Below the pieces are notes generated by a model. It had not been told where the DNA came from. It saw nothing but the letters and a program-made list of their open reading frames with translations, and did not search any database. Both the position numbers and the translations under genes were made by a program. 64,000 nt of DNA from Natrinema ejinorense (GTDB lineage: Archaea > Halobacteriota > Halobacteria > Halobacteriales > Natrialbaceae), in NCBI RefSeq assembly GCF_002494345.1, contig NZ_NXNI01000001.1:1550001-1614000 (forward strand), read 5' to 3'. Each line of letters opens with the position of its first letter. The first letter of the stretch is position 1. Of this stretch, positions 30,319-31,853 are shown one piece after another.

Positions 30319-30627
30319 TTACCAGCGGGGCGGCTCGAGTCCGGCCGACTCGAGGAGGTCCTTCCAGCGCGACTGGATCGAGAGTCGAGAGACGTCGGCG
30401 GCGTCGGCGACTGCGCCCTGCGTCCGGCCGTCGCCGGCGACGAGCGACCCCGCGTAGAGGCTGGCTGCAAGGACCGCTCGTTTCGAGCGATCGGACGCCG
30501 GCACGTCGGCGAGGAAGAGGTCGACCGCACACGACCGCGCTTCCGTCGATAGCTCCAGGCGCTCGGCGGCGGTCTCGAGTTCCTCGAGCCACGGTTCGTA
30601 CTCGATGCGATCACGGGCGCTGTGCAT
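30319..30627 (-). CDS. TFB-related single cyclin-fold protein
   Basis: 102 residues from ATG 30627, chosen because a minus-strand TATA (ctttatg, read at 30652-30658) lies 28 bp upstream. It shows half of a TFIIB core: AAERLELSTEARSCAVDLFLADVPASDRSKRAVLAASLYAGSLVAG, then a TQGAVADAADVSRLSIQSRWKDLLE segment that resembles the helix-turn-helix of the second cyclin repeat. The zinc ribbon, B-finger and other cyclin repeat are missing. It may be a transcription modulator competing with TFB, or a decayed copy. Haloarchaea carry many TFB paralogues. Confidence 0.65.
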   Translation of the reverse strand: MHSARDRIEYEPWLEELETAAERLELSTEARSCAVDLFLADVPASDRSKRAVLAASLYAGSLVAGDGRTQGAVADAADVSRLSIQSRWKDLLESAGLEPPRW

Positions 30628-30866
30628 GCCCCTGCATATCGGTTCGGTCGGCATAAAGCTCCGGTCCACGAGCAAGGCGGTGTTCGCCAGGCCCGTTGCC
30701 ACGACCGTTCGCCGATCGGCTTTTCCAGATCGACCGCTACTCGAGTATCAGTCCGTGAGAGTCCCGATTTCGGTCGGGTTTTCTGTCCGAATACGAGACG
30801 ACTACTAAACCGCGTACCGACTCGAGTATCGAGCCACCGGGCGGTCGGTATGATTCGGGCCCCGAT

Positions 30867-31040
30867 ATGCAAGCGCCAACCTGTAAACTCGTCTGTACCG
30901 GCTGTGGGCTCGAGATGCCCTATCGGGAGCGGTGGCTGGCCGAACAGGCCGCGGAGTTGCATCAGCTTCGAGATCCCGAGCACGTCACGCACATCGTCCC
31001 GCCGGACTGGTCGCCGGAGGAACCGGTCACGCACGGGTAA
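30867..31040 (+). CDS. 57-residue Cys-motif protein
   Basis: A short frame from ATG 30867 to TAA 31040. It reads MQAPTCKLVCTGCGLEMPYR, with a CxxxCxxC cluster at residues 6-13, then an amphipathic helix RERWLAEQAAELHQL and an acidic end with two His. It could bind one zinc through Cys and His, but the full ligand set is uncertain. The haloarchaeal amino acid composition supports coding. It sits 46 bp upstream of tRNA-Leu on the same strand. Confidence 0.5.
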   Translation: MQAPTCKLVCTGCGLEMPYRERWLAEQAAELHQLRDPEHVTHIVPPDWSPEEPVTHG

Positions 31041-31086
31041 CGTGGACCGACAGGTACTTACTCGATTCGCGAAAACTCGGTGGTGA

Positions 31087-31171
31087 GCGCGGGTAGCCAA
31101 GCCAGGCCAACGGCGCAGCGCTTAGGACGCTGTCCCGTAGGGGTCCGCCGGTTCGAATCCGGTCCCGCGCA
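31087..31171 (+). tRNA. tRNA-Leu (anticodon UAG)
   Basis: An 85-nt gene with no intron. The acceptor stem is gcgcggg/cccgcgc with discriminator A at 31171; CCA is not encoded. The anticodon arm is gcagcg-cttagga-cgctgt with TAG at 34-36. A long class II variable arm (cccgtagggg) and the T-arm ccggttcgaatccgg confirm leucine identity. The last 23 bases recur twice downstream. Confidence 0.96.
31149..31171 (+). repeat. tRNA-Leu 3' tail, copy 1 (within the gene)
   Basis: Bases from the T-arm to the discriminator, starting cggttcgaatccggtcccgc and ending gca. Identical to 31271-31293 and 31440-31462; presumed attB-like core. Confidence 0.85.
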
Positions 31172-31270
31172 TGGCTGTCGCGAGCAAACTCGCGAGCGAC
31201 AGCGATCGTCGACCGGTTCGAACCCTGCAAGGAACGCGCAGCGACCAGCGGGAGCGAGCATTTCTTGCTT

Positions 31271-31293
31271 CGGTTCGAATCCGGTCCCGCGCA
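31271..31293 (+). repeat. tRNA-Leu 3' tail, copy 2
   Basis: Exact 23-bp copy of the end of tRNA-Leu, 122 bp downstream of the first. Confidence 0.85.
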
Positions 31294-31439
31294 TTGTCTG
31301 CGAATCGTAGACTCGCAGGCCAGCAAATCTCTGATTTGCGCTGCTGTCGCGAGCAAACTCGCGAGCAACAGCAATCGTCGACCGATTCGAACCCCGGAAG
31401 TCGCAGCGCTCGAGCAAAGCGAGAGCGACCGTCTTCCGT

Positions 31440-31462
31440 CGGTTCGAATCCGGTCCCGCGCA
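31440..31462 (+). repeat. tRNA-Leu 3' tail, copy 3
   Basis: Exact 23-bp copy, 169 bp beyond copy 2. The PhiH1-type repressor gene lies just to the right. Confidence 0.85.
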
Positions 31463-31595
31463 GGCCACGCCTCACGGACAGCGTGGGCCGCCACAGTGTG
31501 AGACTCGGTTGCAGCGAGACGGTATTCCGCTGGCAAGAGAAGGGATTCCGAAACCCACTCCGGCGTCGCCGTGTCCCCAGTGACAATAGACCGCC

Positions 31596-31853
31596 TCAGT
31601 CGTCCTGAACGAGCGAACTCGCGTCGAACTCCCCCTCGAGATACGATTTCCCCTCGTCGGTGATCACGTAGAAGCCTCGAGACGGCCGCTCGAGCAGGCC
31701 ATACGACACGAGTTTGCGACAGCGGACGCCGATATAATTGTTGTTCCGATCGAGCGCATCCGCGATTACTTTCGGAGTGCCGGCCTGGTTCGATCCGAGG
31801 TACTCGAGGATTTCGTCATCTGCCCGCGTCATCCACTCGGCACGCTTTCGCAT
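31596..31853 (-). CDS. PhiH1-type phage repressor, winged helix
   Basis: 85 residues: MRKRAEWMTRADDEILEYLGSN opens the family of small PhiH1-repressor-like proteins, followed by the helix-turn-helix TPKVIADALDRNNNYIGVRCRKLVSYGLLERPSRGFYVITDEGKSYLEGE. It binds DNA as a small winged helix. Such genes are found in haloarchaeal proviruses and integrated plasmids. Its place directly beyond the tRNA tail copies supports an integration hotspot. No integrase is present, so any provirus has been lost. Confidence 0.8.
   Translation of the reverse strand: MRKRAEWMTRADDEILEYLGSNQAGTPKVIADALDRNNNYIGVRCRKLVSYGLLERPSRGFYVITDEGKSYLEGEFDASSLVQDD

Follow-up and report, generated by a model that had tools for sequence, protein, structure and literature searches.

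The hairpin-rich units downstream of the tRNA-Leu(UAG) gene analyzed here stand, in our judgment, about an even chance of being a polymorphic array of miniature DNA-hairpin cassettes that were inserted serially at the 3' end of the tRNA gene. The array is one instance of a much larger haloarchaeal pattern. The window, which is the whole 64-kb stretch of DNA that was analyzed, spans positions 1550001 to 1614000 of contig C1 in a haloarchaeal genome of 4.48 Mb (G000, referred to below as the window genome). The host is Natrinema-like, since a 777-aa protein encoded close by shares 95% identity with Natrinema species. Haloarchaeal tRNA genes often carry one to five downstream cassettes in the order T, hairpin A, T', hairpin B, T, where T is a direct copy and T' an inverted copy of the tRNA gene tail, and most cassettes are about 80 to 260 bp long. 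The features of the Leu(UAG) locus are listed below, with window positions.

31087-31171, plus strand: tRNA-Leu(UAG) gene, the putative insertion target (ARAGORN; Rfam RF00005, 49.1 bits)
31149-31171, plus strand: T0, the tRNA gene tail and putative template for the copies (exact 23-mer again at 31271 and 31440)
31172-31293, plus strand: cassette 1, 122 bp, A - T' - B - T (present likewise in the same-species genome G061)
31174-31203, unstranded: hairpin A of cassette 1, GCTGTCGC-GAGCAAACTCGC-GAGCGACAGC (an A type common to several relatives)
31207-31224, minus strand: T'1, a decayed inverted tail copy (cognate match, permutation z = 10 over 114 units)
31225-31270, unstranded: hairpin B of cassette 1, stem GCAAGGAA..TTTCTTGC
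31271-31293, plus strand: T1, an exact 23-base copy of the tRNA tail
31294-31462, plus strand: cassette 2, 169 bp (missing in G061)
31298-31339, unstranded: two additional small hairpins of cassette 2 (similar sequence 3' of the array in relatives L065 and L071)
31343-31372, unstranded: hairpin A of cassette 2 (91% identity with cassette 1 over the 58-nt repeat D1)
31376-31393, minus strand: T'2, a decayed inverted tail copy
31394-31439, unstranded: hairpin B of cassette 2, GGAAGTCGCAG..CGACCGTCTTCC (a widespread type, 20 isoacceptors)
31440-31462, plus strand: T2, an exact 23-base copy of the tRNA tail
31596-31853, minus strand: small winged-helix gene outside the array (Pfam Mrr_N, E 2.4e-6, below its cut-off; AbiEi_4)

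The last 23 bases of tRNA-Leu(UAG), CGGTTCGAATCCGGTCCCGCGCA, were found at 31149, 31271, and 31440, as an earlier note on this DNA had reported, and no fourth copy was present elsewhere in the 64-kb window on either strand. The conserved internal order that the note described for the two spacer units was also verified: both contained GCTGTCGCGAGCAAACTCGCGAGC.., a TTCGAACCC segment, and a GC-rich hairpin. The second unit was longer than the first (169 versus 122 bp) because of the two additional small hairpins at 31298-31339. The TTCGAACCC segment had been read as a degenerate T-arm; instead, it was an inverted copy of the tail (GACCGGTTCGAACC and GACCGATTCGAACC, compared with the reverse complement GACCGGATTCGAACC), which pairs with the next T copy and encloses hairpin B. 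Because this segment is an inverted tail copy, T-A-T' and T'-B-T are both long palindromes, and the unit resembles an unrolled dumbbell. Two minus-strand open frames (31058-31468 and 31027-31536; MRGTGFEP.. and RDRIRTDGRR..) were the array read backwards, and frames of this kind probably give rise to false hypothetical proteins in the annotation of haloarchaeal genomes. Upstream of the tRNA gene, the window encoded a short TFIIB-repeat protein (30319-30702, minus strand; Pfam PF00382, E 1.1e-6).

All 44 tRNAs of the window genome were located, and the DNA downstream of each was read. With up to 4 mismatches allowed, cassettes were present at 14 of 42 tRNAs in the window genome (roughly one tRNA gene in three) and at 15 of 43 in G061, and the tail copy in both genomes always matched the tail of its own tRNA. 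The arrangement, which the note held to be nonrandom, was far above chance and recurred at many other tRNAs, each with its own tail. Using the symmetric signature GATTYGAA-N30-60-TTCRAATC, with the reversed pattern as the control, we found matches in 57 of 61 relatives; the control yielded zero. In the phylum sample, 41 of 43 haloarchaea carried the signature (1 to 18 matches each), as did 25 of 204 non-haloarchaeal genomes, the latter with merely one or two chance-like matches each, which we regard as background. Forty loci were fetched from five genomes of other haloarchaeal families, and 53 of the 54 signature matches in these distant genomes were located 19 to 550 nt downstream of a tRNA. 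The single match away from a tRNA (L269) resembled an orphan Arg unit. Altogether, 197 of 284 distinct tRNA loci had cassettes (300 cassettes, 32 isoacceptor types), figures that are not an estimate of prevalence because the loci were partly picked for having cassettes. With a looser cut-off, at least one unit was present at 55 of 64 distinct Leu(UAG) loci.

The T copies formed a sharp block that corresponded to tRNA nucleotides ~52 to 73 (122 units), and identity to the left of the block was random. Mismatches between T and the cognate tRNA were 0 to 9% inside the block and 66 to 75% at nucleotides 49 and 50; the 27% at the last T base falls where end-calling is ambiguous. A block with these limits fits an identity block that runs from the T-loop to the end of the gene. 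The T' copies matched the tail of their own tRNA in register in a gapped test (permutation z = 10, 114 units), and an ungapped comparison of T' with the cognate acceptor gave a weak signal (4.38 versus 4.62 mismatches). Decay was clearly greater in T' than in T.

When 148 distinct units from 28 isoacceptors were clustered, B types were widely shared, with one cluster of 64 units covering 20 isoacceptors; A stems were more local than B types, yet they had an apex in common. The 26-nt B core GTCGCGCGCAGCGAAGCGAGCACGTC was conserved across many families and was exact in 160 of 293 haloarchaeal genomes. It adjoined a tRNA at 29 of the 30 loci examined (27 according to ARAGORN and 2 more according to Rfam). 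The palindromes were maintained: the inner stem of B covaried, with two pairs being Watson-Crick in 76 to 77 of 93 sequences versus 32 to 34 when shuffled, and the stem beside the B core existed in at least 10 different perfect 4-bp versions with compensatory changes. Most hairpin apices were GNA triloops of the d(GCGAAGC) type, which have very high stability in DNA. Of the 148 units, 105 opened with a run of T at which transcription could end. B modules from different tRNAs of one genome were no more than about 85% identical, and the spread across tRNAs therefore looks old, with recent turnover apparently occurring mostly at the same tRNA between lineages. The hairpin apex GCGCGCAGCGACCAGCGGGAGCGAGCAC was also found in intergenic DNA of haloarchaeal plasmids that had no tRNA there (L261 1495-1530 and L263 1495-1530).

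Comparisons between the window genome and G061, whose upstream regions were about 96 to 97% identical, showed that several tRNAs differed by the precise presence or absence of a cassette. For tRNA-Phe, Arg(gcg), and Ser(gga), the flanks of occupied and empty alleles aligned from the very first base behind T (base 0); Arg(cct), Arg(tct), and Glu(ttc) were left out as evidence of precision because their flanks misalign at base 0. Across the genus, 18 of 29 species had a cassette at Arg(gcg) and 19 of 29 had one at Ser(gga), the A-B combinations differing, and an identical trailer commonly followed either the bare tRNA or the cassette at Arg(gcg). Modules were exchanged as well. Between the same two genomes, the A-T' part was kept and B differed at Ile and Lys(ttt), the B part was kept and A-T' differed at Gly(gcc), and the difference at Leu(taa) was the one expected from T'-T' recombination. 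A and B types combined freely at one orthologous tRNA, and the Leu(UAG) loci, whose arrays vary across relatives as shown by the missing cassette 2 of G061, were A-B mosaics. The window genome also contained two tandem tRNA-Asp genes with one cassette each (C1 3110000-3116000; L052), and within each genome the two Asp cassettes were more alike than either was to its counterpart in the other genome, a pattern of concerted evolution.

The arrays were polar. In 80 arrays with two or more units, the proximal T had 0.75 mismatches per 20 and the second T had 2.40, and the first T had fewer mismatches than the last in 55 arrays, an equal number in 18, and more in 7 (p = 3e-9). Because the tRNA-proximal T is the least decayed, the arrays seem to gain new units next to the tRNA, and gene conversion whose effect falls off away from the tRNA could also produce or add to this polarity. 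Rates throughout were deduced from genome comparison. Two longer arrays, one with identical B cores at a regular 152-bp spacing (G267:C1 2351632-2351961) and one at Ser(tga) with alternating B types (G116:C1 705396-705937), look like recent tandem duplications of whole units.

The earlier note had also proposed a tRNA-derived satellite that grows by tail-targeted recombination next to a PhiH1-type repressor. The limits of T (nucleotides ~52 to 73), the precise presence or absence of cassettes, and the polar arrays supported the first part, and the link to the repressor did not stand. A homologue of the winged-helix gene, which is the note's repressor, was present at 10 of about 72 related loci, where units were present or absent independently of it, and no viral or plasmid cargo was seen. 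An ordinary provirus remnant with this repressor was ruled out, given that the repressor is sporadic and that units exist without it, and the adjacency of the repressor is incidental.

In the serial insertion model, each event would add one copy of the last ~22 nt of the tRNA (T) and leave the tRNA intact. The new cassette would adjoin the tRNA, and older copies would shift outward and decay; T would be the attachment core or a duplicated target. The most likely agent would be an enzyme of the tyrosine recombinase type that is supplied in trans, crosses over in the T-loop, and takes as its substrate the palindromes that contain hairpins A and B. Exchange between T copies in direct orientation would excise cassettes precisely, and A and B would be shuffled by exchange at T and T'. 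We infer from the genome comparisons that the insertion is enzymatic and site specific and that the hairpins act as DNA. A tyrosine recombinase is our best guess because the T block is the identity block of tRNA-targeting integrases and because archaeal integrases prefer tRNA 3' ends (PMC8371274). On the other side, a circle of 100 to 220 bp is very small for a double-stranded substrate of a tyrosine recombinase, and no linked enzyme, cargo, or circular form was seen with the cassettes. Recent change could also be ordinary homologous exchange between lineages that is anchored in the tRNA.

A rival reading, which we judged to be rather unlikely, if well worth weighing, takes the arrays as plain tandem repeats with no dedicated enzyme. 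General homologous recombination, gene conversion, and strain import alone would add, remove, and reshuffle ancient tail-flanked hairpin units, while template-switch correction would keep the palindromes perfect. The direct T repeats would account for precise loss, and the Leu(taa) difference, the concerted evolution of the two tRNA-Asp arrays within each genome, and the divergence of B copies between the tRNAs of one genome are all consistent with it. However, it leaves unexplained the origin of units with cognate tails at 32 isoacceptor types and of those at the end of aspS, as well as the sharp T block, the polar decay, and the B core conserved across many families. A function at the RNA level, which we consider improbable, would have the array cotranscribed with the tRNA, with the hairpins and T copies serving as a trailer, a processing signal, a decoy for tRNA enzymes, or a source of small RNAs, as in the RtT repeat of Escherichia coli. 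That repeat, which annotation classes as a small RNA, shows the same order, and the covarying stems and the fixed order relative to the tRNA point the same way. Against this, isolated G.T mismatches were no commoner than A.C mismatches (93 versus 95 in T'-B-T, 19 versus 22 in A, and 43 versus 66 in T-A-T'), which gives no indication that a sense-strand RNA is under selection. The test is suggestive rather than final because the balance was uneven within B, where the inner part had 20 G.T and 57 A.C mismatches and the T'/T arms thus had more G.T than A.C. Arrays were also cleanly missing in close relatives, and the T-run that opens 105 of 148 units is a possible transcription end. Finally, a B-type hairpin occurred among decayed copies of the aspS 3' end (60 to 77% identity) in G257:C1 at about 321600-322000 (L401); this similar array, a single decayed example, follows a gene that is not a tRNA and is therefore evidence against a purely tRNA-processing role. 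The tRNase Z-cut small RNAs that the earlier note had suggested may exist, but the palindromes lack a sense-RNA signature and a similar array follows the protein gene aspS.

Mobile elements of known kinds were weighed in the same way. Repeated integration and loss of viruses or plasmids at the tRNA would leave cassettes that consist of an att site and the ends of the departed element, and T is the kind of block that such integrases leave. The tRNA-Gly(tcc) gene of the window genome is followed by a 2.35-kb insertion (C1 about 452980-455335; L048 2982-5335) and then by a cassette, and the insertion holds a DUF7342 gene and an open reading frame without a Pfam match that, on visual inspection, looks like part of an integrase. 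We nevertheless regard scars of this type as very unlikely, since the order and the hairpin types are identical at 28 to 32 isoacceptors, and since the att block at Gly(tcc) is longer and reaches the anticodon, and no A hairpin follows that tRNA. When cargo-bearing relatives of the units were sought, phage records gave no match, plasmids matched at the tRNA-Gly unit of a Natronorubrum megaplasmid and otherwise at the isolated hairpin apex, and the viral-contig matches listed were chance-like, with no strong B-like hairpin among them. Casposons use tRNA ends, and insertion by a CRISPR- or casposon-like Cas1, with the tail as the duplicated repeat, would produce the repeat-spacer appearance and the growth at one end. 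A miniature element of the IS200/IS605 type (Y1 transposase) would bring in palindromes, given that near-terminal palindromes are known in IS605-type elements and PATEs (PMC3119063). We give these two options a very slim chance. Of 45 haloarchaeal genomes, 31 had no Cas1; almost all of these 31 carry cassettes, and they include the window genome, G061, and G047 (14 signature matches). Y1 was missing in 19 of 45, including G061 and G058 (16 signature matches). Their absence from many carrier genomes ruled out Cas1 or a Y1 transposase as the necessary enzyme. Moreover, the cassettes duplicate their target, with a ~22-nt cognate copy at every cassette, whereas IS605-type elements and PATEs do not (PMC3119063).

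The nearest known system is the tyrT/RtT repeat of E. coli. In strain K-12, the tyrT/tyrV locus (L504, 1286700-1288000, minus strand) has three downstream exact copies of a 19-base tail, and 10 bases of the tail recur there in inverted form, GGGGAAGGAT, pairing with the tail so as to enclose hairpins (11 of 2,000 shuffles reach this). Like the haloarchaeal arrays, the locus has tandem units behind a tRNA that end in its tail and contain an inverted tail copy, in the order tail, inverted tail, hairpin, tail. Unlike them, it is known here at one tRNA type and has near-identical 178-bp units with no modular A and B hairpins, whereas the haloarchaeal units cover 32 isoacceptor types, are class-wide and modular, and turn over fast. 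The RtT covariance model RF00391, with which the E. coli copies score 133 to 138 bits, gave no match in the window at the gathering threshold or in L001 and L267 at E 0.1, and Rfam searches of units and orphan loci gave only tRNA and E. coli RtT above the cut-off.

Elements with tyrosine integrases that target tRNAs (the SNJ2 and pNOB8 families) share with the cassettes an identity block that covers the 3' end of the tRNA and reconstitutes an intact gene, and a newest insertion that adjoins the tRNA, and archaeal att sites favor tRNA 3' ends, with variable 5' limits (PMC8371274). The cassettes differ from these elements in measuring about 95 to 220 bp, in having an inverted tail copy and hairpins common to several tRNA types, and in having no integrase gene or cargo between the att copies, for which the cassettes, mostly 80 to 260 bp, are too short. 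CRISPR arrays and casposons likewise alternate a repeat with nonrepeat DNA, grow at one end, and copy the repeat from the insertion site, but the spacers of the cassettes are related hairpins, the repeat is a tRNA tail, and Cas1 is not required. The attC site of integrons is a folded palindrome (R''-inner stem-R') with internal loops and a G|TT boundary in its outer box. By analogy, the haloarchaeal units may be likened to it through their folded palindrome, G|TT boundary, and outer box GTTCRAATC, but they have no gene cassettes, and their outer box is the tRNA T-loop. REP/BIME elements, MITEs, PATEs, and haloarchaeal SMRs (PMC3119063) are also small noncoding palindromic repeats. They are dispersed, whereas the cassettes are bound to tRNA ends (53 of 54 signature matches and 29 of 30 core matches were linked to a tRNA) and carry direct and inverted copies of the target's own tail. 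Palindromic elements of haloarchaea, archaeal integrases, and the tRNA-like t-elements of Haloferax, which are marked by tRNase Z cleavage at a tRNA-like fold, are described in the literature, and no description of such arrays was found in a search of open-access papers.

The observation that prompted this analysis is real, and the interpretation that came with it was half right. Almost all of the haloarchaeal genomes examined carried the pattern, which extends to most types of tRNA gene. A bolder reading, which we hold tentatively and think is probably not correct in full, is that the arrays belong to a new class-wide DNA acquisition system of haloarchaea. In such a system, a conserved recombinase would capture short DNA hairpins and stack them at the 3' ends of tRNA genes (and occasionally of other conserved genes), duplicating the gene tail, and the arrays would be a polar record of insertions that is CRISPR-like in form and independent of Cas1. 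The haloarchaeal arrays also open the tyrT repeats of E. coli to comparative study because they display the same architecture on a large scale, and the insertion idea is directly testable in culturable species. If the arrays are the work of an active insertion system, that system would be a new way to rearrange DNA at the most used integration sites of microbes, and it would account for the hypervariability behind tRNAs and for some spurious open reading frames annotated as hypothetical proteins.
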